The position numbers and the translations under genes are program-made. The notes below the pieces were generated by a model. It ran no database searches. It worked only from the letters and a program-made list of their open reading frames with translations, and had not been told where the DNA came from. DNA of 64,000 nt, taken from positions 930,001 through 994,000 of the forward strand of contig NZ_CP157199.1 of the NCBI RefSeq assembly GCF_039954625.1, written 5' to 3'. This DNA comes from Pontimicrobium sp. SW4 (GTDB lineage: Bacteria; Bacteroidota; Bacteroidia; Flavobacteriales; Flavobacteriaceae). Of this stretch, positions 8,113 through 61,513 are shown piece after piece; the stretch's first letter is position 1, and every line of letters begins with the position of its first letter.

Positions 8113-8814
8113 CTATTTTATTTGCTTTAATATTCCTAAAACAATGCAGTATTGAGCCAAGGCATAAGTAAGCATTATACTAATATTGGAACTAGGAATA
8201 GGACTATAAAACTTATTTAACGCTAACAAACTATCAGAAGCAACAAAAAATAGCGCGCCAATTAGCACTAAACTATAACTAATAGTCATTACGCTATTTT
8301 TTCTTAAAGATGCAGTAATTGCCATTGTTAGTATAATAAATATATATACTATTACAGGAATAAGCATATCTCCTAAACCATCTTTAAGTATATAAAACAA
8401 GCCAGAAGCATAGATGAGAAGTATTATAATAAAAGAGAGAGGTTTATGAGTACGATTCCTTTTTTCAATAAAGGCAAGTATGTACATAATATGTGCTAGT
8501 AAAAAAGCAACTAAACCGCCAAGAAAGAAGCTAGCAGACATATCTACAAACATTAATAATACGTCACCAACTAACGAAAATATGAGTGCAAACAACATTA
8601 TAATCCAAGTTTTTCTATTTAGGTGATTTCCATTTTTATAAAAGAACAGAGTTAAAGAAACTAGAATTAGAGGTTTAGCAGCATAATGCAAAGTTTGTAA
8701 TGAACTTATACTAGAGGTAATGAGTTCAATAATTACAATTATTGAAAAAAGAAGAGTAAATGATTTTTCAGTTTTCGAAAATTGCATATGATCTATTTTT
8801 TCAAATATATTCAA
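8113..8814 (-). CDS. YhhN-family lysoplasmalogenase-like membrane protein
   Basis: A 233-residue protein with about eight hydrophobic helices and the YhhN family pattern: AAKPLILVSL, then SLVGDVLLM with a conserved Asp, then a late FVASDSLLAL. Animal TMEM86 members hydrolyse the vinyl ether of lysoplasmalogens. The bacterial function is less clear. The start may be the internal Met at 8787, which would leave the LytTR-type repeat at 8810-8841 wholly intergenic. It is divergent from the TonB receptor. Confidence 0.85.
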   Translation of the reverse strand: MNIFEKIDHMQFSKTEKSFTLLFSIIVIIELITSSISSLQTLHYAAKPLILVSLTLFFYKNGNHLNRKTWIIMLFALIFSLVGDVLLMFVDMSASFFLGGLVAFLLAHIMYILAFIEKRNRTHKPLSFIIILLIYASGLFYILKDGLGDMLIPVIVYIFIILTMAITASLRKNSVMTISYSLVLIGALFFVASDSLLALNKFYSPIPSSNISIMLTYALAQYCIVLGILKQIK

Positions 8815-8841
8815 TTCATCATTAAAAATTTACAGTTCGGT
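8810..8841 (+). promoter_or_regulatory. LytTR-type direct repeat before the TonB receptor (site A)
   Basis: Two 9-mers, TCAATTCAT (8811-8819) and ACAGTTCGG (8832-8840), are separated by 12 bp. They match the LytTR consensus [TA][AC][CA]GTTN[AG][TG] with one and zero mismatches. The -7-like box CACTTTTG (8874-8881) starts 33 bp after the repeat end at 8841, and TTTG at 8852-8855 could be the -33. The arrangement is the same as at 22808-22839. Confidence 0.68.
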
Positions 8842-8914
8842 CATTATAAGTTTTGTTTTCAAGGTTGATACTACACTTTTGTCTCATCAATCAAAACGAA
8901 CAACATTTTTAAAC

Positions 8915-11068
8915 ATGAGAACACTAATCACCTCACTATTTATTTTACTAAGTTTTAGTATATCTGCTCAAACAGTTGTTAGCGGAAAAATCACCAATAA
9001 CAAAGGAGTACCTATTGAAGGTGCTAATGTGTATCTTGAAGGAACCTATGATGGAACAACTTCAAATAAAGACGGAAAATTTAGTTTTAATACTACCGAA
9101 ACTGGTTCACAAACCTTAGTAGTTTCATTTATCTCTTACGAGAAATTTATTATGGTAGGAGATATATCATACATGCAAAATATAGATATTAAACTTCGTG
9201 AAGATGTTAGTGCTCTTGATGCTGTAGTACTTTCTGCAGGAACGTTTGAAGCTGGTGATAACAGTAAAGTAAATGCGTTAAAACCTTTAGATGTAGTAAC
9301 GACTGCAAGTGCTTTGGGTGATTTTGTTGGAGCGTTACAAACCTTACCAGGAACTGCAACTGTTGCCGAAGATGGTCGTTTGTTCGTTCGTGGTGGTGAA
9401 GCCGAAGAGACACAAATTTTTATTGACGGCATTCGCGTTTTCACACCATATGCGCCAACCACAAATAACACGCCAACAAGAGGTCGTTATTCGCCATTTT
9501 TGTTTGATGGCATTACGTTTTCAACAGGAGGTTATTCGGCGGAGTATGGTCAAGCGTTATCATCTGTATTGCTTTTAAATACAATAGACGAACCAGACCA
9601 GGAAAAAACGGATATTGGTATTATGACTGTTGGAGCTACGCTTGGTAATACTCAAAAATGGGACAAAAGCTCTATAAGTGTCAATGCTTCCTATATTAAT
9701 TTAGCTCCTTATATTGGATTATTTCCAGATAGAAATGATTGGAAAAAACCATATGAAGGGCTTTCAGGTGAAACCGTTTTTAGACAGAAGTTTGATAATG
9801 GGTTATTAAAACTATACGCTGCTTTTGATACGTCTAATTTTGAGTTGACTCAAGAAGATATTAACTATGAAGAGGGTGTGCATTTTAAATTAAAAAATAA
9901 TAACTTATATGTTAATAGTTCCTATCAAGGAATGCTTAACGATAATTGGTCTGTTTTTGGAGGGATGAGTTATACATATGCTGATGAAAACATAAATATT
10001 ATTGATAATGATATTCGTGACCAAGAACACTCGGCGCATTTTAAATTCAAGTTTAAAAACAGAATTAGTAATCGATTAAAATTATATTTTGGGAGCGAAT
10101 ATTTTACAACAAATTTTAATGAAGAATACGCTTCTGATTTTGTTGCTAAAACAGATTACGGATTTAATAACAACATCTTTGCAAGTTATGCTGAAGCAGA
10201 TGTGATTTTCTCGAAAGCATTTGCTTTAAAAGCAGGATTAAGATTAGAGCATACATCATTATTGGAAGAATTTACCATATCACCACGTTTGTCGTTGGCT
10301 TATAAAACGTCACCAAAAAGCCAGCTATCTTTTGCCTATGGAAATTTTTATCAAAACCCGCAAAGTAATGTTTTAAAATTCACTCAAAATATTGAATCAC
10401 AAGAAACTAGTCATTATATACTAAATTATCAGTTAAATTCTGAAGGTCGTATATTTAGAGCAGAAGCTTATTATAAAGACTATGATAATTTATTAAAGTA
10501 CGATGATGAGTTTACCAATTTTGATACCAGTTTTTCAAATAAAGGTTATGGATTTGCAAAAGGTATCGACTTGTTTTGGAGAGATAATAAGAGTATAAAA
10601 AATACTGATTATTGGGTGAGCTATTCTTATTTGGATTCTAAACGTAACTATAGAAATTTCCCTGTTGAAGCTCAGCCAAATTTTGCAAATACTCATAACT
10701 TATCTGTGGTAGGAAAATATTGGATTGAAGACTGGAAAAGTCAAGTAGGTTTTAGTTATGCATTTGGATCTGGCAGAACGTATACTAATCCAAACATGGA
10801 TGGGTTTTTAAATCAAAAAACAAAAGGATATAACAACATAAGCTTAAATTGGGCGTATTTGCTGAGTCCACAAAAAATACTATATTTTTCAATAAATAAT
10901 GCTACTGGATTTAAAAACATTAATGGTTATCAATATGCAAATACGCCTGATTTGAATGGTGATTTTGCTAGACGAAGCTTAAAACCAGCAGCAGACCAGT
11001 TCTTTTTTATTGGATTCTTTTGGACAATTAGTGAGGATAATACAAGTAATCAGTTGGATAAGTTGTAA
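8915..11068 (+). CDS. TonB-dependent outer membrane receptor with carboxypeptidase-like domain
   Basis: Taking ATG 8915 gives a 717-residue protein with a clean signal peptide (MRTLITSLFILLSFSISAQ). The frame is open upstream but lacks a credible start. Domains in order are a CarboxypepD_reg-like beta-sandwich at about residues 20-100 (ISGKITNNKGVPIEGANVYL-like), a plug at about 115-220 (VRGGEAEETQIFIDGIRV), and a beta-barrel ending in an aromatic residue-rich strand. It imports an unknown ligand across the outer membrane using TonB energy. There is no SusD partner, which argues against a glycan system. Control by a LytTR regulator is suggested by the upstream repeat. Confidence 0.92.
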   Translation: MRTLITSLFILLSFSISAQTVVSGKITNNKGVPIEGANVYLEGTYDGTTSNKDGKFSFNTTETGSQTLVVSFISYEKFIMVGDISYMQNIDIKLREDVSALDAVVLSAGTFEAGDNSKVNALKPLDVVTTASALGDFVGALQTLPGTATVAEDGRLFVRGGEAEETQIFIDGIRVFTPYAPTTNNTPTRGRYSPFLFDGITFSTGGYSAEYGQALSSVLLLNTIDEPDQEKTDIGIMTVGATLGNTQKWDKSSISVNASYINLAPYIGLFPDRNDWKKPYEGLSGETVFRQKFDNGLLKLYAAFDTSNFELTQEDINYEEGVHFKLKNNNLYVNSSYQGMLNDNWSVFGGMSYTYADENINIIDNDIRDQEHSAHFKFKFKNRISNRLKLYFGSEYFTTNFNEEYASDFVAKTDYGFNNNIFASYAEADVIFSKAFALKAGLRLEHTSLLEEFTISPRLSLAYKTSPKSQLSFAYGNFYQNPQSNVLKFTQNIESQETSHYILNYQLNSEGRIFRAEAYYKDYDNLLKYDDEFTNFDTSFSNKGYGFAKGIDLFWRDNKSIKNTDYWVSYSYLDSKRNYRNFPVEAQPNFANTHNLSVVGKYWIEDWKSQVGFSYAFGSGRTYTNPNMDGFLNQKTKGYNNISLNWAYLLSPQKILYFSINNATGFKNINGYQYANTPDLNGDFARRSLKPAADQFFFIGFFWTISEDNTSNQLDKL

Positions 11069-11177
11069 AAGTTTTGCCGTTTTTATGAAGTCAAGAATTT
11101 ACTTTTATACTTAAAAAATAGATTTAGGCCTCTGCAGAAACGGTAAATGGTTTTATTTCTTTCAGTAATCTAATTAC

Positions 11178-12098
11178 TTATTCCTTTTTAATATCAGGTT
11201 GCCCTTTTACATTAAACTCAAAAATATCGTTACGTGCATAGTGGCCAATAACATCAAAATCTAACTTACTACGTTTAATGTCTTCTAAATCTAATTCAGA
11301 AACTAAAACACCAGCTTTATCAAATAAAGGTCCATTTATAATTTTCCCTAATGGTGATACAATTATGCTCCCTCCTGAACAAAATTTTTCTGACTGATTG
11401 GAAATTTCGTTTTTGTATTTGTCAGGATACATCGAGGTGGTCATATACTGATTGCAGCCCAAAACAAAACAGCGACCTTCTAAGGCTATTTGTTGCATGG
11501 TTGCTGTCCATTGCTCACGCGAATCAGCTGTTGGTGCAATGTAAATTTCTACACCTTTTACATACATACTCATTCTTGCTAAAGGCATGTAGTTTTCCCA
11601 ACAAATGAGTCCTCCAAGTTTACCAATTTTAGTATCAAAAGTAACTAAAGATTCCGCTCCTGCTTCAGCCCAAACTAGACGTTCGGTTCCTGTGGGTTTA
11701 ATTTTTCGATGCACACCAAGTAATCCTTTAGTAGGTGAGAGGTATAGCATTGAACAATACAAACTACCATTGGTATTTTGCTTTTCGGTTACTCCAATAA
11801 CAATATAAATATTTTGTTTTTTTGATAAGTTTTCTAAACGGATTAAATCGTCGCTCTCTAAATCAAAACTATTGTTGTAGTAGTCTGTATAATGTTGTCT
11901 ACCTTCATCTGTTCTGCTACCAATGGTTGCGCCAAACGAAAACCCACGAGGATATCCTGGAATAAATGATTCTGGAAACACAATTAATTCGCAACCATTA
12001 TTAGCATATTGCTTGGTAATGGTTTCTACCTTTTCAATTGTTTTTTTCTTATCAAAAAATACTGGAGCATCTTGAACAACGGCTACTTTAATTTTCAT
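11178..12098 (-). CDS. nitrilase-family carbon-nitrogen hydrolase
   Basis: A 306-residue enzyme with the full nitrilase catalytic triad: E43 in FPESFIPGYP, K134 in HRKIKPTGTERLVW and C166 in GLICWENYMPLARM. The K and C motifs are those of true aliphatic or aromatic nitrilases (nitrile to acid plus ammonia) rather than of amidases. It has no signal peptide and so acts in the cytoplasm. It is the third gene of an operon after a cyclophilin and a RidA protein (gaps of four and five bases). The natural nitrile is unknown. Confidence 0.9.
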   Translation of the reverse strand: MKIKVAVVQDAPVFFDKKKTIEKVETITKQYANNGCELIVFPESFIPGYPRGFSFGATIGSRTDEGRQHYTDYYNNSFDLESDDLIRLENLSKKQNIYIVIGVTEKQNTNGSLYCSMLYLSPTKGLLGVHRKIKPTGTERLVWAEAGAESLVTFDTKIGKLGGLICWENYMPLARMSMYVKGVEIYIAPTADSREQWTATMQQIALEGRCFVLGCNQYMTTSMYPDKYKNEISNQSEKFCSGGSIIVSPLGKIINGPLFDKAGVLVSELDLEDIKRSKLDFDVIGHYARNDIFEFNVKGQPDIKKE

Positions 12099-12103
12099 TT
12101 TTA

Positions 12104-13006: not shown

Positions 13007-13010
13007 AATT

Positions 13011-13562
13011 TTAATCTTGAATTTCTACAATCATTTCAATTTCAACTGCTATATTTCGGGGTAGTGATCCCATACCTACAGCTGCACGTGCATGTTTTGC
13101 TCGGTCACCAAATACTTCAACCATAAGGTCAGAAAAACCATTAATAACTTCGGGATGTTGGGTAAATGCACTATCTGCATTTACCATACCTAATACCTTT
13201 ACAATACGGACTACTTTGTTTAGATCTCCTATTTTATGCTTTAATACAGAAAGTTGAGCAATACCTGTTAATCTAGCCGCTTCGTAGCCTTCTTCGATAG
13301 TTAAATCAACTCCTACTTTACCTGTTATATAGCTACCATCTAATTTACTAGGGCCTTTACCAGCCATAAATAGTAAGTTGCCAGTTTTTACGGCATTTAC
13401 ATAATTTGCAACTGGTGGTGGAGAAGGACTTAAGGTGATTTTTAATTCTTCTAAGCGTTCTTCGACATCGTAATCGTATAAAGGTTCTACTAGCTCAGTC
13501 TTCTGTGTATTTTGTTTACATGCGGATAAGATAATCAAGCATAAAATGAGAAATCGTTTCAT
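13011..13562 (-). CDS. RidA-family lipoprotein
   Basis: A 183-residue protein with a lipoprotein signal (MKRFLILCLIILSACKQ, lipobox SAC) followed by a RidA/YjgF domain from about residue 45. The classic motif region is present in NLLFMAGKGP, GYEAARLTGIAQLSVL, VVRIVKVLGMV and HARAAVGMGSLP. Cytoplasmic RidA deaminates reactive enamine and imine intermediates. This one should be exported and anchored, so its substrate may differ. RidA normally has an arginine in this last block, and here HARAAVG keeps it. It is the first gene of the cyclophilin/nitrilase operon. Confidence 0.88.
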   Translation of the reverse strand: MKRFLILCLIILSACKQNTQKTELVEPLYDYDVEERLEELKITLSPSPPPVANYVNAVKTGNLLFMAGKGPSKLDGSYITGKVGVDLTIEEGYEAARLTGIAQLSVLKHKIGDLNKVVRIVKVLGMVNADSAFTQHPEVINGFSDLMVEVFGDRAKHARAAVGMGSLPRNIAVEIEMIVEIQD

Positions 13563-13574
13563 AAAAAGAGAAAT

Positions 13575-13608: not shown

Positions 13609-13615
13609 GAAATAA

Positions 13616-15344: not shown

Positions 15345-16070
15345 ATGCAAGTAAAGAAAAATCCTAACGTGGATGTAAACAGAAATAGCAGCTTATATTT
15401 TGCTATAGGTCTTTGTTTGATGTTATTGGTTACCAAAGGACTACTTAATTATAAAACCTACGATAAACAAGATATTGCTCTAGAAGCTCTTCAAATGGGA
15501 GAGTTAGAAGTGGAAGATGATATTCCAATAGTGGATATTAATATCCCTCCACCACCTCCACCACCTCCAGCTTCACCTGAGATAATAAGAATTGTTGAAG
15601 ATGTTGTTGAGGTTGAAGAAACTATTATAGAAAGCACAGAAACAAGTATAGACGAGGCAATTGAAGAACGAGTTGAGGTAGATGAGGTAGAAGTTGATGA
15701 ATTAGAAGAAGAAGTTAGTGTACCTTTTGCTGTTGTTGAAAAAGTGCCAATTTGGCCAGGGTGTACTGGAAGTGATAATACAGTATTAAAAAAGTGTTTT
15801 CAAGACAAAATGAATGCACATGTCATTAAAAATTTTAAATATCCACAACAAGCAATTGATTTGAATATTCGAGGAAAGGTGTTTGTTATGTTTACTATTG
15901 ATTCTAATGGGTATGTTACTAATATTAAAGTACGAGGACCAGATAAAACTCTTGAGGGGGAAGCTTCTAGAATAATCGGGCTAGTTCCAAAAATGGAACC
16001 TGGTAAACAGCGAGGAAAGCCAGTAAATATTCCTTATAGTCTACCTATTAACTTTGTATTAGAAAACTAA
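15345..16070 (+). CDS. TonB-family energy transducer
   Basis: A 241-residue protein with one N-terminal transmembrane helix (about 16-34), a proline-rich stretch (PPPPPPPP at about 67-74), an acidic glutamate/valine-rich periplasmic spacer (about 80-130) and a C-terminal TonB domain. That domain contains FKYPQQAIDLNIRGKVFVMF, DSNGYVTNIKVRGPD and a late VNIPYSLPINF. It carries proton-motive energy to outer membrane receptors, possibly the one encoded at 8915. The stop overlaps the convergent DUF1684 gene by four bases. Confidence 0.93.
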   Translation: MQVKKNPNVDVNRNSSLYFAIGLCLMLLVTKGLLNYKTYDKQDIALEALQMGELEVEDDIPIVDINIPPPPPPPPASPEIIRIVEDVVEVEETIIESTETSIDEAIEERVEVDEVEVDELEEEVSVPFAVVEKVPIWPGCTGSDNTVLKKCFQDKMNAHVIKNFKYPQQAIDLNIRGKVFVMFTIDSNGYVTNIKVRGPDKTLEGEASRIIGLVPKMEPGKQRGKPVNIPYSLPINFVLEN

Positions 16071-17645: not shown

Positions 17646-17666
17646 GAAAATTTAGGATTAAAGATA

Positions 17667-20926: not shown

Positions 20927-22726
20927 TTACTCTATTTTTTTTGCAGGAACTTTGGCTCCATTTTGATGTAAGGTTAGCATATTAATTTTTCCATCTTCTC
21001 CTTTAGAGAATATAAGCTCTGCTTCTATAACCTTAAAAAAGAAGTGATCTTCTTTTTTAGCAAAAATTTGATTTTTACCTTGACCTGTTGCTTGAGCAAA
21101 GATCTTTCCATCTTTTATCGTTATTTCAATAACAAACCCAGGTTGCAACTCATATTTGCCAATATATTTTTCTAAGGTAGCCTCACCAATCTCCACGATG
21201 TTTGGAGTGCGCTCAAAAGAAATTGGATCAGGTAGAGTTGGTTCTATTTTAGCTTCCATACCTGAGATGTCTCCACTTGTATTCATTGTAAACTTAAATC
21301 GTAATGGACCAGAGTCTGTTGTGTCAATACCAGTTTCTTCTACTTGAAAAGGCTCAAATACATCATAATGTTCATGCTTTAGCCACATTTTCATTAGTTT
21401 AAAACTTGCAAACAATGAATCACGTTCAACATTCACATTGAATTCACCATAACCAGGATGAGAATATGTACCAGTGTAATCTTGTTTAATATGAGATGGT
21501 TTAGTATTCTCTACTCGAGTAGATGTTACTTTATCTTTGGTTTCAGCTTCTGTCTTTTTTGCTTTTTCTACAGCATCAACAAAATCTTGAATCCAATCTG
21601 TTTTATTAACTTTTAGCATACGATCTGCGATAGTATTTCTTACTAAACTTGGTACCCGAGATCCATTTTGATTGGCCAATACGACAATACCCAAACTATC
21701 ACTAGGATAGAATGCTACATTGGCTGAAAAACCATCAATATTTCCACCATGTTCCACACGATAATGCCCTTTATAGGAAGACATCATCCACCCGTAGCCG
21801 TAATTTGACATGTGTAAGCCTGGTTTTTCGGCAGGTAAATTTGCATTAATCACCATTTGAGAACTCATGGCCTCGTTAATATAACCTTCAGTAATTATTT
21901 CTTTACCATTAAATTTTCCTTTATTAATCCAAGTTACAAGCCACCTAGACATATCATTTACACTACTGTTAATGCTTCCAGCTGGAGACATGGCAGCGAT
22001 ATCATAGTAATCCATTTTGGAATTAGAATTGTCTTTTTTGGTTTCATACCCATAAGCAGCATTACTGGCGGTTTTCATTTCGTCAATAGTAACATTAGTT
22101 CTTGACATTCCTAATGGTTTTAGAAATCGCTCTCTAATATTGTCTTCCCAACTTTTACCAGTAATTTTTTCGGCAATAACACCTTGCGCTAAAAACATAA
22201 AATTATTATAATACCATTGTTGTCTAATTCCTGTAAAAGGTTCTTGATGTTTTATACGTTGTATTAAGCTATCTCTATCAAATGTTGGAAATAAGTACCA
22301 TGAATAATCGTGACGAGGAAGCCCAGTACGATGACTCATCAAATCTTTAATAATGATATTATTATTCATGTCATCATTAAAAAACTCTAATTCAGGAATA
22401 TGTTTTCTTGGATTATCATTAAAGGATAGTTTATCATCTTCTCTCAATTGCCCTAAAATAGCCGACGTAAAAGCTTTCGTACTCGATCCAATTGCAAATA
22501 GCGTATTAGCATCTGCTGGAATTTTGTTTTCTACATCTCTATAACCAAATCCTTTTGCATAAATAATTCTATCTTTTTCAACTACAGCAACAGCAAAACC
22601 TGCTGCATGTGTTGCTTCAAGAATTTTATTAAGATCATCATCAATTTTTTTTAAGCGTTTATCTGTTTGGCTAAAAGATGAAGCAATAATACAAATGCTA
22701 AATACAAAAAGGAATAACTTTTTCAT
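20927..22726 (-). CDS. secreted beta-lactamase-family serine hydrolase with DUF3471
   Basis: A 599-residue protein with a signal peptide (ends SSFS). The class C beta-lactamase/D-Ala-D-Ala peptidase fold has SXXK as SSTK in IGSSTKAFTS (about 77), YXN as YNN in QWYYNNFM and HGG in VEHGGNIDGF. The C-terminal part (about 405-510) begins DYTGTYSHPGYGEFNV, a DUF3471 domain, and a second lipocalin-like segment follows. It probably acts as a periplasmic esterase or peptidase. The leader has AAACCAACCACA next to ATG. Confidence 0.9.
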   Translation of the reverse strand: MKKLFLFVFSICIIASSFSQTDKRLKKIDDDLNKILEATHAAGFAVAVVEKDRIIYAKGFGYRDVENKIPADANTLFAIGSSTKAFTSAILGQLREDDKLSFNDNPRKHIPELEFFNDDMNNNIIIKDLMSHRTGLPRHDYSWYLFPTFDRDSLIQRIKHQEPFTGIRQQWYYNNFMFLAQGVIAEKITGKSWEDNIRERFLKPLGMSRTNVTIDEMKTASNAAYGYETKKDNSNSKMDYYDIAAMSPAGSINSSVNDMSRWLVTWINKGKFNGKEIITEGYINEAMSSQMVINANLPAEKPGLHMSNYGYGWMMSSYKGHYRVEHGGNIDGFSANVAFYPSDSLGIVVLANQNGSRVPSLVRNTIADRMLKVNKTDWIQDFVDAVEKAKKTEAETKDKVTSTRVENTKPSHIKQDYTGTYSHPGYGEFNVNVERDSLFASFKLMKMWLKHEHYDVFEPFQVEETGIDTTDSGPLRFKFTMNTSGDISGMEAKIEPTLPDPISFERTPNIVEIGEATLEKYIGKYELQPGFVIEITIKDGKIFAQATGQGKNQIFAKKEDHFFFKVIEAELIFSKGEDGKINMLTLHQNGAKVPAKKIE

Positions 22727-22807: not shown

Positions 22808-22839
22808 TACAGTTCATCATTTAATAATTACAATTCGGT
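22808..22839 (+). promoter_or_regulatory. LytTR-type direct repeat before the 2TM/LytTR operon (site B)
   Basis: The 9-mers ACAGTTCAT (22809-22817, perfect to consensus) and ACAATTCGG (22830-22838, one mismatch) have a 12-bp spacer. The -7-like box GATATTTG (22872-22879) starts 33 bp after the repeat end, the same distance as at site A. No good TTG -33 is present, as expected of an activator-dependent promoter. Confidence 0.7.
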
Positions 22840-22904
22840 AATTCTGTTTTTTAAAAAGTCAAGTAACTATAGATATTTGTTTCATAATTATAAAATAAAC
22901 GATT

Positions 22905-23330
22905 ATGAGCACATTAGTTAAAATTATTATTGCCCTTTTAATGAGCCAAACTTTATTGTATGCACAAGACAATACAAATCAAAGCATAACTGTAAAAATT
23001 ACTAACATTGATGGTAATTCAGGAAAAGTATTTGTAGCGCTTTATGATTCTGAAATAACGTTTTTAGAAAAAAAATATAAATCTACTACTAGTACTATAA
23101 AAAATAGTAGTTGTGAAGTTGTCTTTGAAAATGTCCCTAATGGAGTCTATGCCATTTCTTTATTTCATGATAAGAATGGTAATAATAAAATGGATAGCAA
23201 TTTTTTAGGTATTCCAAAAGAAGACTATGGATGCTCAAATAATGCAAGAGGATTTATGGGGCCACCAAAGTGGGAAAATACCAAATTTGAAATTAAAAAT
23301 AATTCAGTAACACAAACTATAAAACTATAA
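22905..23330 (+). CDS. secreted DUF2141 protein
   Basis: A 141-residue protein with a signal peptide (about 1-20, ending LLYAQ) and a DUF2141 domain: GNSGKVFVALYDS, a central FENVPNGVYAISLFHDKNGNNKMD and the C-terminal GIPKEDYGCSNNARG. The fold is predicted to be an immunoglobulin-like beta-sandwich. It is the first gene of the kinase operon, four bases from the next gene, and its function is not known. Confidence 0.85.
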   Translation: MSTLVKIIIALLMSQTLLYAQDNTNQSITVKITNIDGNSGKVFVALYDSEITFLEKKYKSTTSTIKNSSCEVVFENVPNGVYAISLFHDKNGNNKMDSNFLGIPKEDYGCSNNARGFMGPPKWENTKFEIKNNSVTQTIKL

Positions 23331-23334
23331 CATC

Positions 23335-23955
23335 ATGAAAAAATTACTATTAATTACATTGATATTAGTTTCTGCTGTAGGAACTGCACAATCAAACTAT
23401 GAAAAAGGCATGCAAAAAGCCTTTGAACTTTGGGGAACAAACCCAGTTGAAGCTTCAAATTTATTTGAACGCATTGCTGCAGCCGAAACAGATAATTGGT
23501 TACCACCATATTATGCAGCACAAGTTTTAATTTTACAAGGCTTTGAAATAAAAGACAAAGACAAATTAGATTCTCAATTAAAAAAAGCACAAGATTTAAT
23601 TAATGACGCTACGGCAATTTCTAAGAATAATCCAGAAATTATGATTATGCAAGCTTTATTACATACTGTATATGTAGCTTATGATGGCGCGACTTATGGT
23701 ATGACATTAGCACCAAAAGTAGCAGCTATATATCAGCAGGCTAAAGAGATAGATCCAAGTAACCCAAGAGTATTATTAAATAAAGCGGAATGGGATATGG
23801 GAAGTGCAAGCTTTTTTGGACAAGACACAACGCCATTTTGTAAGGATATTGAAAGAGCCTTAGAACTTTTTGCTAACTTTAAACCAGAAACTCCATTCTA
23901 TCCAAGTTGGGGAAAAGAGAGAGCTGAACAAGTTCTTGCTTCTTGTAAAGAGTAA
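23335..23955 (+). CDS. secreted TPR-like protein
   Basis: A 206-residue protein with a signal peptide (to about residue 18, GTAQS) and helical pairs in the TPR style: KGMQKAFELWGTNPVEASNLF, NPEIMIMQALLHTVY and NPRVLLNKAEWDMG. It has no enzymatic motif. The operon position, between DUF2141 and the kinase, suggests a periplasmic part of the same system, but the role is unknown. Confidence 0.72.
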   Translation: MKKLLLITLILVSAVGTAQSNYEKGMQKAFELWGTNPVEASNLFERIAAAETDNWLPPYYAAQVLILQGFEIKDKDKLDSQLKKAQDLINDATAISKNNPEIMIMQALLHTVYVAYDGATYGMTLAPKVAAIYQQAKEIDPSNPRVLLNKAEWDMGSASFFGQDTTPFCKDIERALELFANFKPETPFYPSWGKERAEQVLASCKE

Positions 23956-23979: not shown

Positions 23980-25329
23980 ATGAAGAAATTATTTAAAACT
24001 ATTGCATCTGGAATTATTGTAGGTATTGTTATTATGCTTATAGATCAAACAATTCGATATTTTTCTGGATACGAAATAATGATTGATAATGATTTCTACC
24101 GAACATTTTTTTATTACATGTTGTATGCCGTTCCTTTAAGTATTGTTAACTCCTATTTTTTTGATTATATAAATGTAGATGTTGTTTGGAATCGTTATAA
24201 AAAATATAGGATAGCTCTTGGTTTTTTTGGTTCAGTAATTATTACGCTCATTACCATATTTTTTGTTAGAGCTTTTATTGAAATGGTTGTTGAAGGAGAA
24301 ACTTTTGATGAGTTCATTAGTACAGAAAGACCAGAATTTTATTTTAGTGCTTTATTAATCACTCTAGTTATTTCACTGTTTTTTCATGCTGTGTATTTCT
24401 ATCAGCAATTACAAAAAAACAAGATTAAAGAACAAAAGGTTATTGCAGGAACAGCAAGTGCTAAGTTTGATGCTTTAAAAAATCAGTTAGATCCACATTT
24501 TTTATTCAATAGTTTAAACGTATTAACTAGTCTAATTGATGAAAACCCAGAAAGTGCACAAAAATTCACTACTGCTTTATCTAAAGTATATCGTTACGTA
24601 TTGGAACAAAAAAGTAAAGCGTTGGTAACGGTTGATGAAGAATTAGAATTTGCAAAAACCTATATGTCGTTATTGAAAATGCGTTTTGAAGACAGTATTA
24701 TTTTTGAAATTCCAGAAAGTGCATCAAACCCAGAAGCTAAGGTTGTGCCATTAGCGTTACAATTATTATTGGAGAATGCAGTAAAGCACAACATGGTAAC
24801 AACCAGCAAACCTTTGCATATTAAAATTTATGAATCTAACAATATGTTAGTAGTTGAAAACAATTTGCAAACAAAACAAATAGTAAAGAAGAGTAGTGGT
24901 GTTGGATTGGATAATATACGCCAACGCTACAATTTATTAACCGATAAAAAAGTAAACATCAATCAACAAGCAGATAGTTTTGCAGTTGCAATACCAATGC
25001 TTACAAAACAAATATCAGTCATGAGAACACGAACAAATAATCAATTTGACGACAGTTATGTTCGAGCACGTAAACATGTCGAGGAAGTAAAAGAGTTTTA
25101 TTACGGAGTCATATCATACATTGTTGTAATTCCGTTTTTGATATTTATTAATTACTGGACATTTTGGGGCTTTCAATGGTTTTGGTTTCCAATGTTTGGT
25201 TGGGGAATAGGAATCGCATTTCACGCTTATAAAGTATATGTAAACGATGGCGTATTAGGACGCAATTGGGAACGCAATAAAATTGAAAAGTTTATGCGTG
25301 AAGAAGAAGAGAAAAACCGTTGGAACTAA
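23980..25329 (+). CDS. LytS-type sensor kinase with fused C-terminal 2TM domain
   Basis: A 449-residue protein. Four N-terminal helices (about 10-30, 45-62, 78-105, 125-147) are followed by the His_kinase domain with the phosphoacceptor block QLDPHFLFNSLNVL (about 170) and an HATPase domain with the N-box LLLENAVKHN and GVGLDNIRQRY. After the kinase, residues about 350-449 form a 2TM domain (ARKHVEEVKEFYYGVISYIV, then GIGIAFHAYKVY, then GRNWERNKIEKFM). It should sense an envelope signal and phosphorylate the LytTR regulator six genes downstream. The fused 2TM tail is unusual. Confidence 0.93.
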   Translation: MKKLFKTIASGIIVGIVIMLIDQTIRYFSGYEIMIDNDFYRTFFYYMLYAVPLSIVNSYFFDYINVDVVWNRYKKYRIALGFFGSVIITLITIFFVRAFIEMVVEGETFDEFISTERPEFYFSALLITLVISLFFHAVYFYQQLQKNKIKEQKVIAGTASAKFDALKNQLDPHFLFNSLNVLTSLIDENPESAQKFTTALSKVYRYVLEQKSKALVTVDEELEFAKTYMSLLKMRFEDSIIFEIPESASNPEAKVVPLALQLLLENAVKHNMVTTSKPLHIKIYESNNMLVVENNLQTKQIVKKSSGVGLDNIRQRYNLLTDKKVNINQQADSFAVAIPMLTKQISVMRTRTNNQFDDSYVRARKHVEEVKEFYYGVISYIVVIPFLIFINYWTFWGFQWFWFPMFGWGIGIAFHAYKVYVNDGVLGRNWERNKIEKFMREEEEKNRWN

Positions 25330-25340
25330 AATTGAATATT

Positions 25341-25667
25341 ATGAATTATCCCGATAAAGAACGTGCATTTTTGAGTGCAAAAAGGCGTGTTGAAAAACTA
25401 AGAGCATTTTATTCACATCTTGGAGTTTATATTGTAGTAAATTGCCTTATTTCTGCAATTAGAATTGTTATAAACCTTAGAAATGGAGAATCATTTGCAG
25501 ATACTTTTTTTGATTTTAGTTTTTCTGCAAATTGGTTGTTTTGGGGAGTTGCCCTAACCATGCATGCTTTTGCTGTTTTTGTTTTACCATTAATACTAGG
25601 AAATAATTGGGAGGAAGAAAAAATAAAGCAATACATGGAAGAAGATAAACACAATAATTTTAATTAA
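25341..25667 (+). CDS. stand-alone 2TM-domain protein, copy 1
   Basis: Using ATG 25341, this is a 108-residue protein made of one 2TM domain: RVEKLRAFYSHLGVYIVVN, a second helix ALTMHAFAVFVLP and the tail NNWEEEKIKQYM. The earlier TTG at 25320 overlaps the kinase gene and is less likely. It lies 11 bp after the kinase and is a paralogue of the kinase C-terminus and the next two genes. It may form homo- or hetero-oligomers in the membrane with the kinase. Confidence 0.85.
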   Translation: MNYPDKERAFLSAKRRVEKLRAFYSHLGVYIVVNCLISAIRIVINLRNGESFADTFFDFSFSANWLFWGVALTMHAFAVFVLPLILGNNWEEEKIKQYMEEDKHNNFN

Positions 25668-25672: not shown

Positions 25673-26032
25673 ATGGAAAAATATAATATAGAACCATACA
25701 ACGATAAGCAATCAAGGTATGATTTTGAAAAAGAAGAAGTGTATATAAGAGCAAAAAAAAAGCTAGATAAACTAGTGGGCTTTTATTGGCACTTAGCATC
25801 ATATATAGTTGTTAATACATTTTTAATAATAATTATAGTTGTAAATAAAGATGAAGGAGAAACTATATGGGAGTTTGGTACTTTTGCAACAGCATTTTTT
25901 TGGGGGATAGGCTTGTTCTTCCACTTCTTGGGTGTATTTGGACCAGGATTTATGTTTGGTAAGAATTGGGAAGAAAAAAAGATTAAAGAGTATATGGATA
26001 AAGATAAGGAAGAACACCAACGCTTTCAATAA
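25673..26032 (+). CDS. stand-alone 2TM-domain protein, copy 2
   Basis: A 119-residue 2TM protein with an N-terminal extension of about 25 polar residues. Core elements are KKLDKLVGFYWHLASYIVVN, GIGLFFHFLGVFGP and KNWEEKKIKEYM. It starts five bases after copy 1. The G(K/R/N)NWEExKI motif is shared by the fused and first two free copies. Confidence 0.85.
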   Translation: MEKYNIEPYNDKQSRYDFEKEEVYIRAKKKLDKLVGFYWHLASYIVVNTFLIIIIVVNKDEGETIWEFGTFATAFFWGIGLFFHFLGVFGPGFMFGKNWEEKKIKEYMDKDKEEHQRFQ

Positions 26033-26037: not shown

Positions 26038-26328
26038 ATGAATAAAAAGTATCTAGAGGCAAAGAGAAAAGTTAAGTCGCTTAGGAGGTTTTATATTCAT
26101 CTGCTTTTCTTTTTAATTGTAAATGTTGCATTGATGTTTAACCTAATTATGTTAGAGAAAGACGAAAGCTTAAACATTTTTGTTTGGGCAATTCTAAATA
26201 TTATGATAACATGGAGCATAGGCGTATTTATCCATGCTTGGATTGTTTTTAAAGGAAAAATACTATTTAGTAAAGCATATGAAGATAGAAAGATTGAAGA
26301 ATTTATGAATGAAGAACAAAATCTATAA
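26038..26328 (+). CDS. stand-alone 2TM-domain protein, copy 3
   Basis: A 96-residue 2TM protein: KRKVKSLRRFYIHLLFFLIVN, GVFIHAWIVFKGK and YEDRKIEEFM. It is the most divergent copy: the NWE motif is reduced to AYEDRKIEEF. It starts five bases after copy 2 and ends two bases before the DUF2306 gene. Confidence 0.82.
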   Translation: MNKKYLEAKRKVKSLRRFYIHLLFFLIVNVALMFNLIMLEKDESLNIFVWAILNIMITWSIGVFIHAWIVFKGKILFSKAYEDRKIEEFMNEEQNL

Positions 26329-26330: not shown

Positions 26331-26801
26331 ATGCTCAACGACATTATACATAGTAATATTGGTTGGTTTCATTTTATTACAGCGGTTATGTCTTTAATAA
26401 CAGGAACAGTTGTAGTGTTAAATGTAAAAGGCACATTGTTTCATAAGCGAATAGGCTATGTGTATGTTATTTCGATGTTGACATTAAATTTAAGTTCCTT
26501 TTTTATTATCAATTTTGGCGGTTTTAGTCTGTTTCATTTCTTTGCTATAGTAAGTTTGCTTACTGTTTTAGGAGGTATGTATGCTGCATGGAAAAGATAT
26601 AAAAATTGGTTAACAGCACATTACTATTTTATGAGTTGGTCTGTGGTTGGTTTGTATGCAGCACTTTGGTCAGAAATTGGTACACGTTTTACGAGTAACA
26701 TGAAAGATTTCTGGTGGATGGTTGCTTTAGCAACATTTATGACTATAGCAATAGGAGCAAGAATTATTAATAAGAATGCTAAAAAATTAAACTTAAAATA
26801 A
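26331..26801 (+). CDS. DUF2306 family membrane protein
   Basis: A 156-residue protein with four helices and the DUF2306 pattern: FHFITAVMSLITGTVVVL, HKRIGYVYVISM, LAAxW-like YKNWLTAHYYFMSWSVVGLYAA. The His in HYYFMSW and the Arg in HKRIGY are conserved in the family, which has no proven function. Its stop shares one base with the LytTR regulator ATG (TAATG), so the pair is tightly coupled. Confidence 0.85.
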   Translation: MLNDIIHSNIGWFHFITAVMSLITGTVVVLNVKGTLFHKRIGYVYVISMLTLNLSSFFIINFGGFSLFHFFAIVSLLTVLGGMYAAWKRYKNWLTAHYYFMSWSVVGLYAALWSEIGTRFTSNMKDFWWMVALATFMTIAIGARIINKNAKKLNLK

Positions 26802-27556
26802 TGAAAGTAATTATTATAGAAGATGAAAAGCCATCAGCAAGACGTTTACAGCGTATGTTAAACAATTTAGACATCGAAGCTGAAGTTATGTTACATTCGG
26901 TTGAAGAATCTATTGATTGGTTTAAGAATAATACACATCCAGACCTTATTTTTTTAGATATACAGTTGAGTGATGGATTATCTTTTGAAATTTTTGAGAG
27001 TATAAACATTCAATCTGCAGTTATTTTCACCACAGCTTATGACGAATATGCTTTACAAGCCTTTAAGCTTAATAGTATAGATTATTTATTAAAACCTATT
27101 GATGAAGAGGATCTAGCAAAAGCTGTTTCAAAATTTAAAGAACGTTTGCCAAAACAACAAGCAGTTACTTTAGATTTTAACGATATTAAAAACCTATTGG
27201 TAAATCCTATAGAGCGCGAATACAAGAAGCGTTTTTCAGTGAAGGTTGGACAACATTTAAAACTTATTAATATTGAAGATATTGAGTGTGTGTATAGCGA
27301 AAACAAAGGCACCTATGTGCATACATCTGAAGGTAGAAATTACTTGTTAGATACAACTTTAGAAAATCTTGAAAACGAATTAGAACCACATACATTTTTT
27401 AGAATTAATCGTAAATTCTTCGTTAATATAAATGCCATTAAAGATATGGTGAGTTATACGAATTCTCGACTACAAATAAAACTCAATAATTATAACGAAC
27501 AAGAGGTTATTGTAGCACGTGAGCGTGTAAAAGATTTTAAAGACTGGTTGGAGTAA
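26801..27556 (+). CDS. LytTR-family response regulator
   Basis: A 251-residue regulator. Its receiver domain (1-120) has acidic EDE near residue 8, phospho-acceptor D52 in LIFLDIQLSDG, TTAYDEYA and K102-region LLKPIDE. The LytTR DNA-binding domain (about 150-248) contains KLINIEDIECVYSENKGTYV, FFRINRKFFVNINAI and QEVIVARERVKDFKDWL. It is the cognate partner of the kinase at 23980 and the probable binder of the direct repeats at 22808 and 8810. Confidence 0.94.
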   Translation: MKVIIIEDEKPSARRLQRMLNNLDIEAEVMLHSVEESIDWFKNNTHPDLIFLDIQLSDGLSFEIFESINIQSAVIFTTAYDEYALQAFKLNSIDYLLKPIDEEDLAKAVSKFKERLPKQQAVTLDFNDIKNLLVNPIEREYKKRFSVKVGQHLKLINIEDIECVYSENKGTYVHTSEGRNYLLDTTLENLENELEPHTFFRINRKFFVNINAIKDMVSYTNSRLQIKLNNYNEQEVIVARERVKDFKDWLE

Positions 27557-54069: not shown

Positions 54070-54074
54070 AAGTT

Positions 54075-55721: not shown

Positions 55722-55728
55722 AATATTA

Positions 55729-57060: not shown

Positions 57061-57062
57061 AA

Positions 57063-57698
57063 TTATAATTTATTTGGTTGGATATTCCCATACTTTGCTT
57101 GAAATTTTACTGAATGAAAATAACATAAAGGACCAAGTATTGCATAAACAAAACCTGGTAGTCCAAATGTGACACCAATTTTAAAAATTGCAAGTATTAT
57201 GGAAATTATGGATACTAAAACGAAAATAAAAAAATGCCTAGAATAGAATAAAAGGGATACATTATTTGTTTTGGAGTTTTTATAAGCTCTTTTATACATT
57301 AGTGAAAAGCACAAGAAGATTAATAAAAAACCTAAGCTATACAAAACAAATAAGGAGGCTAAATCTTCAATAGAAATCCCTACTTGTCTTAATAATGTAC
57401 TAGTCATTGATTTAAGCGGAAATACAAAGTATAGAACTACGAATAATAAAATAGAGTTATAAGTAATTATAAGATTGTCTATATAACTATTCCTTCTAAA
57501 ATAATTATAATGAAGTTTCCATAAAGCAATTAAAACAAAAAAGCTAACTCCAAAACTTATAAAGTTTTTAAAATTGTTTTTGAGTTCTAAAAAACTATCT
57601 CCTGAACCTAATGACACAACCATTAGTGTAGCAGAAAATGCAAAAACAGCATCACTAAATGCTTCTATCCTGCTTATACTATGGTTTAGCTTTAACAT
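57063..57698 (-). CDS. TMEM175-family potassium channel-like protein
   Basis: A 211-residue six-helix protein with the TMEM175 motif RIEAFSDAVFAFSATLMV in helix 1 (FSD core). Prokaryotic TMEM175 forms K+-selective tetramers. It is not a full two-repeat protein but a single-repeat bacterial form. Its start shares one base with the preceding gene stop (TAATG). Confidence 0.88.
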   Translation of the reverse strand: MLKLNHSISRIEAFSDAVFAFSATLMVVSLGSGDSFLELKNNFKNFISFGVSFFVLIALWKLHYNYFRRNSYIDNLIITYNSILLFVVLYFVFPLKSMTSTLLRQVGISIEDLASLFVLYSLGFLLIFLCFSLMYKRAYKNSKTNNVSLLFYSRHFFIFVLVSIISIILAIFKIGVTFGLPGFVYAILGPLCYFHSVKFQAKYGNIQPNKL

Positions 57699-58183
57699 TA
57701 GTTCTTTTTATAATTAAATTTTACCGTTTCTATTGTTCCATTTTCTTTAATATCTACATAGACATTCATTTCATTATTGTTTACCTTTTCAAAGGTCATT
57801 CCTTCAAACACTACTTTATTTGGTGTTATTTCTATTAACGGAAAGTCTACCGTTTCGTCTTTGGTTTCCCAACCTTTTAAGTCCGAACCAAAATGTTTTA
57901 GTTGAAGAATGAGTGAATTTTCAACTTCTCTAATAATCTCAATCTCATAAAAGGTTACTTTTCCATCATTAATAAGCTTAAATGAAGCCATCATTGAACC
58001 TCCGGAGGGTTTACTCCAAATTTCTTCTGTTATTCCCCCAAAGGCTTCTCCATGCCAAGTCCCAGAAATCCATGCTATATTTTTAAGTTTAGGTTCTAAA
58101 GAGTTTTCTTTAGCTATTCTTTCTTTAGTTTGAGCTGATACAAATAAACCAAAGAAAAATACTATAATACAAAGATGTTTCAT
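57698..58183 (-). CDS. secreted DUF6265 protein
   Basis: A 161-residue protein with a signal peptide (ends VSAQT) and a lipocalin-like DUF6265 domain: WISGTWHGEAFGGITEEIWS, GGSMMASFKLINDGKVTFYE and ILQLKHFGSDLKGWETKDE. It is co-transcribed with the TMEM175 gene. Function is unknown. Confidence 0.82.
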   Translation of the reverse strand: MKHLCIIVFFFGLFVSAQTKERIAKENSLEPKLKNIAWISGTWHGEAFGGITEEIWSKPSGGSMMASFKLINDGKVTFYEIEIIREVENSLILQLKHFGSDLKGWETKDETVDFPLIEITPNKVVFEGMTFEKVNNNEMNVYVDIKENGTIETVKFNYKKN

Positions 58184-58266
58184 TACTATAATTTTATTTA
58201 TGTTTATAACATTATAACGTTTGCATTATAGAAATAGGGGACATTTTTTAAATTTTAAGAGAACCT

Positions 58267-59520
58267 TTATTGGATAAAAGTTACCTTTTTGATTAAACCA
58301 TTTTCAACTTCATAAATAGCAACTGCATTAAAAACTTGTCCATTTGCAGTGACTTGCTCTTCATCAATAACTTTATTGCCAATTACGATACGTTTTTTAA
58401 TAAAAGCTCTTAAATCTGGAGTTTGTTTAAACCATTGTTCGTAGCTTTTTCGCATTTGTTCTTGACCGTCAGTTTGTAGTTGGTTTGGATAATTATAAAG
58501 TTTTATATCTTTTGTATAAGTTGCCATAAAGGCATCAATATCTCTATTATTGTATGCATCTAGTTGTTTTTGCACTATGCCTTCAGCTTCAGACATTTCG
58601 TTTGAGGCCTTAGCTTCATTATTTTTAGTTTCCTTTTTTTCTTCTTCTACTTTTTCATTTTCATTAATATCTCCAGCAATTAGTAGCATGGTAGCTTCAG
58701 GATTTGTTGCTAAACGCGTAATTTTTGAGATTCCTTTTGAACTTAAATCTTCTACCTGTTTCCAATTATTGTCTTTTTGTAAAGTTAGTTTGTATAAAGT
58801 ACTTTCTTTTCCTGAAAGAATAGTTTTACTATTCAGCCAACATATATCTTCAATACCTTTTATAGTATTAGCAATAACTTTTGTTGCTCCATTTTTTGGG
58901 TTTAAGGATTTAATTTGCCAAACATCATTTTCTTTTGAAATAAAACTTACAAGATTGGAATTAGGAATTTTATGAAATGATCTTCCAACTTTACTTTGGT
59001 ACTTTTTGCTAGTGCCATCTTTTACATTAATTACAAACAGGTTTAAACCATCTTCTTCTATAACAGCTGCAACAATTGTATTAGCATCAAACCAAGTATA
59101 ATAGGCTACTACAAGATCTTGAATAAGTTCTACAGATTCTCCATTACGTAGATTGTATGCATACAAACGTTGTTTCCCATCTTTATCTAATCGTACAGCA
59201 GATACTTCTCTTTTGTTTGGAATTTTAAGCGGTGAATATTCACCTCCTTCGGTATGATTTACAAAGATTTTGGAATCGTAGTTAATACTATATTTTACAA
59301 TGTCTGTTTGACCATTTCTTGTTCCCGCATATAAAATTGTATTATCATCAAGAAAAGATGGTTGATTATCATAACCATCATTTGATGAAATATTTCTATG
59401 GTTTAATAATTCTATTGAGTTGTTTGAGATCTTTAAATCAAATAAAAAAACATCTGTATTAGATTGAGAATAAGTTACAAATACAGTTAACAATAGTAGT
59501 GTAGAAAATAGTTTATGCAT
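58267..59520 (-). CDS. secreted TolB-like propeller fused to a SnoaL-like domain
   Basis: A 417-residue protein with a signal peptide (ends TYSQS). Residues about 20-285 form a WD40/TolB-like propeller (FLDDNTILYAGTRNGQTDIVK, WFDANTIVAAVIEEDG). A charged linker of about 25 residues (EEEKKETKNNEAKASNE) leads to an NTF2/SnoaL-like domain (about 313-417, LDAYNNRDIDAFMATYTKDI). The fusion is unusual. Its role in the envelope is not known. Confidence 0.82.
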   Translation of the reverse strand: MHKLFSTLLLLTVFVTYSQSNTDVFLFDLKISNNSIELLNHRNISSNDGYDNQPSFLDDNTILYAGTRNGQTDIVKYSINYDSKIFVNHTEGGEYSPLKIPNKREVSAVRLDKDGKQRLYAYNLRNGESVELIQDLVVAYYTWFDANTIVAAVIEEDGLNLFVINVKDGTSKKYQSKVGRSFHKIPNSNLVSFISKENDVWQIKSLNPKNGATKVIANTIKGIEDICWLNSKTILSGKESTLYKLTLQKDNNWKQVEDLSSKGISKITRLATNPEATMLLIAGDINENEKVEEEKKETKNNEAKASNEMSEAEGIVQKQLDAYNNRDIDAFMATYTKDIKLYNYPNQLQTDGQEQMRKSYEQWFKQTPDLRAFIKKRIVIGNKVIDEEQVTANGQVFNAVAIYEVENGLIKKVTFIQ

Positions 59521-59634
59521 GTGAATATTTTAATTTTCCTCTAAATTAATAAAAAAGACTTAGTAAATAAGCTTGTTAAGTGTTTATACTAATTTCAATC
59601 TAGATTTAGCAATAAGAGTATAAATTATCATCGT

Positions 59635-60339
59635 TTAGATTTCAAGCATTTTTCTAATATTGGTTTTATAGCTTTCTCCTAACGGAATTTCTATAGCATT
59701 AATCTCAATATCATTCTTTGTATATGCTGTAATTTTATTGCGGTTTATTATGTAAGAACGATGAATACGTATGAAGCGATTGTCTAATTCTTTTTCGAAA
59801 GCAGAAATACTAAATTTTACAGTATGAGATTCATTAGCTAAATGAATTTTCACATAATCTTTTAAGCTTTCTATGTATAAAATATCGCTAAAAACAATTT
59901 TTATTTTTTTTCTATTTTTAGTTACAAAAATATAATTTTCCTCAAGGTTAGTTGAAGTTATAGTAAATTCTTTAGTAACTGTATCTTGTTGATCTTTAAA
60001 TTTTTCAATAGCTCTAAAAAAACGAGAAAAATTAATAGGCTTAAGTAAGTAATCTACAGCATTTAGTTCAAAGCCATCCAAAGCATAATCTCGATACGCA
60101 GTTGTAAAAATTACTTTAGGCTTTTGAATTAGATTTTTAAAGAATTCAGTGCCGCTTAGTACTGGCATTTCAATATCTAAAAAGAGTAAATCTATAGTTT
60201 GTTGTTGTAGAATAGAACTTGCTTCAATAGCACTTCCACAAGAGGCTACTAATTCAAAATCAGTTAATTGAGATAGGTGAGTTTCTATTAATTCTCTAGC
60301 TAATTCTTCATCATCAATAATTAAACATTTGTAAATCAT
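59635..60339 (-). CDS. LytTR-family response regulator
   Basis: A 234-residue regulator. Receiver domain with IDDEE, D55 in LLFLDIEMP, TTAYRDYA and LLKPINF. LytTR domain (about 135-230) with YIESLKDYVKIHL, RFIRIHRSYIINRNKI and IEIPLGESY. It overlaps the kinase gene by one base and is its partner. It is a second candidate for binding the repeats at 8810, 22808 and 61482. Confidence 0.94.
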   Translation of the reverse strand: MIYKCLIIDDEELARELIETHLSQLTDFELVASCGSAIEASSILQQQTIDLLFLDIEMPVLSGTEFFKNLIQKPKVIFTTAYRDYALDGFELNAVDYLLKPINFSRFFRAIEKFKDQQDTVTKEFTITSTNLEENYIFVTKNRKKIKIVFSDILYIESLKDYVKIHLANESHTVKFSISAFEKELDNRFIRIHRSYIINRNKITAYTKNDIEINAIEIPLGESYKTNIRKMLEI

Positions 60340-61412
60340 TATTTAGCTAGTAATTTTAAAGTTACTTTATAGAATTCCTTAGTGTTTTCAATATCCAAAA
60401 AATAATTATTTAAGTATAATAAATCTAGTTGTTTTTTTACATTTTTTAGACCAATACAATCTTTAGTGTTTTTATCTACTTTAGTTTTTGATTTCGAGTT
60501 TTCTATATAAAAAATAATTTGTTTTCCTTCAAGGCTAATTTTTATTGTTATAAAAGCTTCTTTTAATTCCTGACTTACACCATGTTTAAAAGCATTTTCA
60601 ATAAAGGTTAATAATAATAAAGGGGCAATTTTTACATCTTGTTGAATATCTTTTTCAAAAGAAATCTGAACGCGTTTTCCATATCTGACTTTTTCTAAAG
60701 AAAGATAGTTTTCAATAAGTTCAATTTCTTTTTGAAGTGAAACGTAAGTATCATTGCATCGATATAACATATAATCTAAAATATCAGATAATTTATCAAT
60801 TACTTCTGGAGTTTGATCTGATTTTTTAATAGCTAACGCATAAATGTTATTTAAGGTATTAAATAAAAAATGTGGATTTAATTGATGTTTTAAAGCAGTT
60901 AACTCTGCTGTTTTCTTCTGTTCATTTACTTTTAAAAGCCTCTGTTGATTATTATAAAAACGAGCCATTAATAGTAAAGCTGTTGGCGTTAAAAATTTAA
61001 TGGACTTACTTAAAAAAACAGAAAAAGAAGTAAGTCTTTCCCAAAATGAATCTTCAGCATATTTTTTTGCCAGTTCATCATAGTACTGAATATATTTTGG
61101 TTCGTAGAAATACATGTGTAGCGTAACATATAAAAAAAACATAACAACCAATAAAATGGTTAACCAAAATATAAATTGAATGTTTTTTTTGGTATCTAAA
61201 AATTTTGGAATCAACACATATAAACAAATATAAGCCGTGATTATTTGCGGGATTATAATTTTACAAGTAGAATGAAATAACTGGAGATAGCCCCCTTCAA
61301 AATTGGTAATATTTGAAGAAAACATAAAGTATAGAAAAACGCACACCCAAAACAAAAATTGCTTAAGAAATGTAGCCTTATAGAGATTATATTTTATCCT
61401 AAAACGATTCAT
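60339..61412 (-). CDS. LytS-type sensor histidine kinase
   Basis: A 357-residue kinase with four N-terminal helices (about 15-32, 45-68, 80-102, 135-150), a His_kinase block HQLNPHFLFNTLNNIYAL (about 183) and an HATPase domain with TFIENAFKHG and CIGLKNVKKQLDLLY. It lacks the 2TM tail of the kinase at 23980. It is expressed with the regulator, from a promoter divergent from the NTF2-like genes. Confidence 0.93.
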   Translation of the reverse strand: MNRFRIKYNLYKATFLKQFLFWVCVFLYFMFSSNITNFEGGYLQLFHSTCKIIIPQIITAYICLYVLIPKFLDTKKNIQFIFWLTILLVVMFFLYVTLHMYFYEPKYIQYYDELAKKYAEDSFWERLTSFSVFLSKSIKFLTPTALLLMARFYNNQQRLLKVNEQKKTAELTALKHQLNPHFLFNTLNNIYALAIKKSDQTPEVIDKLSDILDYMLYRCNDTYVSLQKEIELIENYLSLEKVRYGKRVQISFEKDIQQDVKIAPLLLLTFIENAFKHGVSQELKEAFITIKISLEGKQIIFYIENSKSKTKVDKNTKDCIGLKNVKKQLDLLYLNNYFLDIENTKEFYKVTLKLLAK

Positions 61413-61481
61413 ATGAAATAGCTAAAATACAATTATACAGTCTATTAGTGTTCAATAGTCGCTAAAATAGCTATTTATGAT

Positions 61482-61513
61482 GCCGAACAGAACTCCTATG
61501 ATGATTAATTGTA
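61482..61513 (-). promoter_or_regulatory. LytTR-type direct repeat before the second kinase operon (site C)
   Basis: On the minus strand the 9-mers ACAATTAAT (61512-61504) and TCTGTTCGG (61491-61483) have a 12-bp spacer, each one mismatch from consensus. The nearest -7-like box on this strand, TATTTTAG (61429-61422), lies 53 bp after the repeat. That is 20 bp further than at sites A and B. Confidence 0.55.

Follow-up and report, generated by a model that had tools for sequence, protein, structure and literature searches.

The window analysed here is a 64,000-nucleotide stretch (G000:C1:930001-994000) of the 3.44 Mb genome of Pontimicrobium sp. SW4. Its forward strand encodes a TonB-dependent receptor with a CarboxypepD-like N-domain (8915-11068; PF13715 and PF07715; start codon chosen by eye), which we propose as a regulon member, and further on a TonB energy transducer (15345-16070; PF03544). 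Downstream on the same strand lies operon B. It opens with a DUF2141 protein (22905-23330; PF09912) and a TPR-like protein (23335-23955) that has no Pfam match and whose TPR and signal peptide were recognised by eye. These are followed by a LytS-type histidine kinase with a C-terminal 2TM domain (23980-25329; PF06580, PF13239), three small 2TM-domain proteins (25320-25667, 25673-26032 and 26038-26328; PF13239 in each), a DUF2306 membrane protein (26331-26801; PF10067) and a response regulator with a LytTR domain (26801-27556; PF04397, 83.7 bits), the proposed activator. The presence of His_kinase (PF06580), Response_reg and LytTR domains within one operon marks a LytS/LytTR two-component system, and the gene order is kept in relatives.

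The nearest named relative of the kinase, at 95%, is from Gaetbulibacter sp. S0825. Relatives of this 2TM-LytS kinase are encoded at 547 loci, the names on which are nearly all Flavobacteriaceae or Flavobacteriales, and the TPR-like gene is present in 69 of the best 80 of these 547. The regulator belongs to neither BtsR (NF008677, 116 bits) nor LytR (NF010684, 107.5 bits), its best full-length NCBIfam matches, both of which fall below the respective cut-offs of 246 and 375. Against solved structures, the profile of its LytTR domain matched one chain, weakly (3d6w, E 0.015).

Among 66 long loci (flanks up to 6 kb), the receptor is present in 19, and in 18 of these it ends 1.7-5.4 kb upstream of the kinase; the tonB gene is present in 34. 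In some relatives the receptor, the TonB protein and the operon adjoin, with TonB between the other two in several. The window's arrangement differs in that other genes separate the receptor (8915), TonB (15345) and operon B (22905). On the reverse strand at 5498-8004 the window also carries another DUF2807 protein (5498-6049), a GntR-type regulator (6030-6410) and an ABC transporter ATPase (7153-8004); no strong operator was found there in the matrix and composite scans of the window described below.

Upstream of the receptor and of operon B stand sites A (8810-8841, +) and B (22808-22839, +). A sequence-only reading of the window had grouped them with a third site, C, as copies of one LytTR-type operator. 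The sequences were found at all three places, and the six 9-mers fit the consensus proposed for them with at most one mismatch, each pair being separated by a 12-bp spacer. Sites A and B as given extend one base beyond their 9-mers on either side; the 9-mers occupy 8811-8819 and 8832-8840 in A (a period of 21) and 22809-22817 and 22830-22838 in B. The extended similarity of A and B beyond the 9-mers was confirmed far above chance, and in both the -7 box begins at the 33rd base past the site, as had been described. The bare consensus, however, discriminates poorly: two-9-mer matches number 15 across the window, where 20 first-order Markov simulations give 17.5 +- 3.9, and spacers of 8-16 bp give 9-18 matches. 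Because the criterion is at chance frequency, three consensus matches alone prove nothing. In contrast, a fitted matrix and a composite model single out A and B.

The matrix, of 32 columns, was seeded by A and B and refined on the 5' regions of the best 80 of the 547 kinase-relative loci, with the operon promoters alone entering the final fit. The predicted conservation at orthologous operon promoters is borne out, with a site scoring above 20 in 79 of these 80 loci; the sole locus without one (L029, 8.4) counts against it. When the fitting was repeated on shuffled 5' regions, 2-6 of the 80 passed 20 in three runs, and shuffled 5' regions scored with the real matrix reached a maximum of 4.7. 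Conservation extends to the receptor promoters. A site scoring at least 17.8 lies 5' of the gene in 19 of 23 receptor relatives, defined by alignment over most of the receptor length; the matches L105-L110 (at most 33% identity) are not part of this count. The relatives L100-L103 score at most 15.0 with the operon matrix and count against conservation. The majority sequence over 71 sites is TACAATTCATCnTTAAAAAATTACAATTCGGT. In the window the matrix gives 41.3 for B and 36.3 for A, both of which were seeds, and -4.6 for C. The third-best match (9.6, at 22365) falls inside a PF00144 gene (20927-22726) and was taken as conserved coding sequence; several relatives show matches like it, roughly 450 bp upstream of their operon site.

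The sites also share a promoter register. We aligned 178 distinct sites (score at least 25, L001-L284) by their ends and without gaps, and compared bases (+10, +34, +37-39 and +40) that had no part in finding them. At +10 every site has T and at +34 every site has A (100% each); T at +37 to +39 is present in 99-100% and G at +40 in 92%, and TTTG begins exactly at +37 in 164 of the 178 sites. The T run at +10 to +12 falls at what we take to be the place of the -33 element, which would lie 9 bp past the second 9-mer at a distance fixed across the 178 sites. The first position of the -7 box (+33), T in the consensus TAnnTTTG, is G in 64%, C in 28% and T in 4%. Placing the sigma-A -7 box from -12 to -5 (PMC9723704) predicts a start at +45, where A is found in 79%. 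In promoter A (8850-8881, +) the inferred -33 element is thus at 8850-8853, the -7 box CACTTTTG at 8874-8881 and the predicted start at A8886. The corresponding features of promoter B (22848-22879, +) are the inferred -33 TTTT at 22848-22851, the -7 box GATATTTG at 22872-22879 and A22884.

This register holds across different kinds of genes. By best BLAST match, 189 sites scoring at least 20 include 110 at operon B or at stand-alone 2TM genes, 37 before receptors, 15 before second DUF2141 genes, 17 before DUF2807 genes, 4 before hydrolases and 1 before a DUF2306-like gene, a classification in which L206 and L213 are filed as second DUF2141 although a kinase follows and they belong to operon B, and in which some sites assigned to the kinase belong to stand-alone 2TM genes. 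A at +34 and TTT at +37-39 are complete in every named class. The frequency of G at +40 is only 0.47 in the second DUF2141 class and 0.59 in the DUF2807 class, and that of T at +10 is 0.82 in the latter. T stands at +33 in 3 of the 4 hydrolase promoters and in 4 of the 12 sites that ten additional loci contain, which counts against a weak -7 box throughout; because of these promoters we regard such a box as common, not universal.

A composite model of operator and promoter together (74 columns, 176 sites, the window's A and B excluded) scores B at 67.9 and A at 55.8. No other place in the window exceeds -3.3, and C reaches -28.7; ten shuffled windows, scored on one strand, peak between -16.6 and -5.1. 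By these measures A and B are real copies of one predicted operator. A rigid spacing from operator to -7 box, with a box that mostly departs from TAnnTTTG, might also describe the extended promoter of a special sigma factor and no LytTR operator at all. We find this hardly credible, given a repeat with the half-site, spacing and position of LytTR operators, a -7 box that is otherwise sigma-A-like, and the co-occurrence with LytTR described below.

Site C (61482-61513, -) was tested and rejected as an operator of the regulon. It had been proposed as the third copy, with A, B and C forming one regulon read by both LytTR proteins, and the fit of all six 9-mers to the broad consensus speaks for that grouping. 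We consider it highly improbable, however: the consensus occurs at chance, both models score C far below A and B, and the promoter register is missing, with A for T at +10, C for A at +34 and ATAG for TTTG at +37. C is also absent from the 44 matches at E <= 10 in the Pontimicrobium sp. SW4 genome (150 candidates scored). The genes behind it, a second LytS/LytTR pair (59635-61412, -) identified by Pfam domains and ortholog search, appear to be lineage-specific and outside the regulon. Five genomes of the same genus hold no ortholog of the second LytS (best 46%), and the LytTR domains of the two regulators align at 24% over 72 columns, a non-significant 15.4 bits. No LytTR pair was found upstream of one paralog of the second LytS in the SW4 genome; the other paralog, L112, was covered by alignment. 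Because of the missing same-genus ortholog, the weak LytTR alignment and the missing promoter register, C is best taken as a chance fit. Directly after this pair lies a protein with a SnoaL-like C-terminus (58267-59520, -).

Genome-wide, we scanned with a sequence-only model built from 71 sites, scoring 150 candidates per genome. In Pontimicrobium sp. SW4 the best matches are A (34.4 bits), G000:C1:921009 (23.7) and B (21.6, a partial match), followed by scores of at most 14.5; the values of A and B are not independent, because both are among the training sites. The site at 921009, 9 kb to the left of the window, precedes a second DUF2141 gene. A weak site at G000:C1:914359 (10.3 bits, E 4.3) is in register, although its weakness counts against it. 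It is flanked on one side by a PspC/LiaI-LiaF-TM/Toastrack gene, itself preceded by a PadR gene, and on the other by a DUF2807 gene. Compared with the 12.3 of the SW4 site, the site of the DUF2807 gene is better in four genomes of the same genus (G001 20.6, G002 22.8, G005 23.2 and G004 17.4). We examined 19 DUF2807 loci. Four have a long upstream flank (L185, L187, L191 and L202), and in all four the PspC gene lies there; among the 15 with about 100 bp upstream, two match the PspC end (L278, L280) and 13 are blank, being too short to tell.

Within the family, 39 of 60 genomes have a match at E <= 0.01. We opened 84 loci, covering all listed matches but that of G015, which is covered as receptor relative L099. 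They hold 86 distinct sites above 14, with none in L266. Named classes account for 79 of the 86: 32 operon B or stand-alone 2TM genes, 19 receptors, 14 DUF2807 genes, 11 second DUF2141 genes, 2 PF00144 hydrolases and 1 DUF2306-like gene (the DUF2306-like genes of L216 and L267 fall under the Pfam cut-off). The remaining 7 lie before other genes. A at +34 and TTT at +37-39 are kept in 83 of the 86; the three failures are a site cut by the locus end (L254), the G011 remnant discussed below (L196) and a lone weak match (L274). In two loci, L254 (G031:C1:164786-164862) and L221 (G060:C1:3463500), the receptor and the second DUF2141 gene are divergently arranged, and a single intergenic region carries two operators facing opposite ways. 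In L227 and L242, from other genomes, strong in-register operators stand before a 200-aa protein with no Pfam match and a DUF6624 protein. The extent first proposed for the regulon holds for operon B and the receptor, fails for the operon behind C, and gains the sites at 921009 and 914359. These matches would widen the regulon to the second DUF2141 gene and, in some genomes, to the PF00144 hydrolase, and the DUF2807 protein beside PspC/PadR is probably a member as well.

If the operon's own LytTR protein reads these sites, the two should occur together. An ortholog (at least 303.8 bits, the next best protein reaching 253.3) is present in 45 of the 60 family genomes, and matches at E <= 0.01 occur in 38 of these 45 and in 1 of the 15 others (Fisher 8.6e-8, in a test that ignores kinship). 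Many genomes without the LytTR system are small, which counts against the association. The sole LytTR-negative genome with matches, G011, has retained the first operon gene and its site. At this locus (L285, G011:C8:40500-56000) the receptor, kinase and LytTR genes are missing and the -7 box of the receptor's orphan site has decayed, which makes it a natural control. Seven LytTR-positive genomes had no listed match. When they were opened, five proved to have a site of at least 19.5 near the operon (G007 with 30.0 and 28.5, G036 with 28.5, G065 with 24.3 and 19.8, G086 with 22.0 and G021 with 19.5); the other two, G081 (17.2) and G016 (13.0), count against the association. An order-wide draw yielded the ortholog at E <= 1e-80 in 11 of 12 Flavobacteriaceae, the family of the window, and in 0 of 67 others. 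Ten new stretches upstream of the LytTR gene score at least 33.6 with the composite model in nine cases and 13.0 in the tenth (G144).

The operator could be real and yet be recognised by a different LytTR paralog, or the regulator of the operon could act as a repressor. Most genomes searched hold several LytTR paralogs. L103 and L104, receptor promoters from a different family of the order, preserve the geometry although their half-sites have diverged (AACCGTTC/AACGGTTC) and no close ortholog of the LytTR was found there at E <= 1e-80; because of this, another LytTR protein may read such sites. We nonetheless judge both versions unlikely. In 79 of the 80 loci a site precedes the operon that encodes the regulator itself, and the sites track the regulator's presence. 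A position upstream of -33 combined with a mostly non-consensus -7 box suits activation.

The kind of system found here is known. Regulators of the AgrA/ComE type combine a receiver with a LytTR domain, use tandem 9-bp repeats by a weak promoter and autoactivate. Ours differs from these in its LytS kinase with a 2TM domain, its envelope targets and the absence, by eye, of a pheromone gene. The LRS promoters of HdrRM and BrsRM in Streptococcus mutans carry two 9-bp direct repeats with a 12-bp spacer, placed 4-11 bp and most often 10 bp upstream of -35, and positive autoregulation by HdrR has been shown (PMC6193735). Sites A and B share with them the repeat size, the spacer and the place just upstream (9 bp to -33). 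The system differs from LRS systems in that a receiver domain and a histidine kinase take the place of the membrane inhibitor, and in having a Bacteroidota -33/-7 promoter. With kinase and receiver domain present, the system is not an LRS; A and B do show what characterises a LytTR direct-repeat promoter, namely repeats, a spacer within 11-13 bp, a place before -33 and a regulator with a LytTR domain. The DUF2807 (Toastrack) target, directly after PspC/LiaI-LiaF-TM/Toastrack and PadR genes, resembles Lia and phage shock systems (PMC11237479), but control here is apparently by the LytS/LytTR system, and Pfam finds no PspA, PspC or Toastrack in operon B, which is not a PSP/Lia operon.

For Porphyromonas gingivalis a two-component system for hemin uptake has been described, and the text of that paper (PMC3764172) has 0 occurrences of 'LytTR', as does the main text of an F. 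psychrophilum transcriptome paper. Among the matches listed from open-licence PMC papers there is no description of this regulon. LytS/LytTR systems with tandem repeats are a known kind; the regulon, the family-wide grammar and the targets appear new.

A conserved operator, a fixed promoter geometry, the genes behind the sites and the co-occurrence with the regulator form the basis of our best reading: very probably, an autoactivating LytS/LytTR system drives a small envelope regulon through the operator seen at A and B. This keeps one part of the original idea, a LytTR regulator acting on its own operon and on a TonB receptor, for which the family-wide operator argues, and gives up the second LytS/LytTR operon. 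From the sequence we infer LytTR binding, activation, phosphorylation and an envelope signal. We propose that the 2TM-LytS kinase senses the state of the cell envelope and then phosphorylates the LytTR regulator (26801-27556), which would bind the two 9-bp direct repeats, set at a 21-bp period along one face of the helix and ending 9 bp before the inferred -33 element. There it would activate sigma-A promoters, most of which have [GC]AnnTTTG as their -7 box in place of TAnnTTTG. Because the geometry equals that of the LRS promoters, LytTR may recruit or hold RNA polymerase at these mostly weak promoters. The operon would thereby be autoactivated, with co-induction of the TonB receptor, of the second DUF2141 protein and, as a probable further target, of the DUF2807 protein next to PspC/PadR. 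By eye, the targets have the look of exported or membrane-bound proteins, and one is the Toastrack neighbour of a PspC/PadR module (compare PMC11237479), which makes an envelope signal seem the likeliest input.

More speculatively, as a possibility that we consider somewhat less likely than not, we hypothesize an undescribed envelope-homeostasis regulon of the Flavobacteriaceae, in which LytS-2TM/LytTR would switch on themselves, the receptor, the DUF2141 proteins and a Toastrack protein. In such a regulon the promoters would mostly be kept weak by G or C at the first -7 position. The dedicated TonB receptor would often adjoin its own TonB protein, and receptor, TonB and kinase may form an outer-membrane signalling chain. 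If the activator model is true, a whole bacterial family common in the sea would have a LytTR operator of its own, with a promoter grammar exact to the base, and the signal would be testable with a single reporter. DUF2141, 2TM and DUF2807, families without an assigned function, would be tied together with one TonB receptor to one sensor, and, should the outer-membrane signalling chain prove true, these three families would gain functions.
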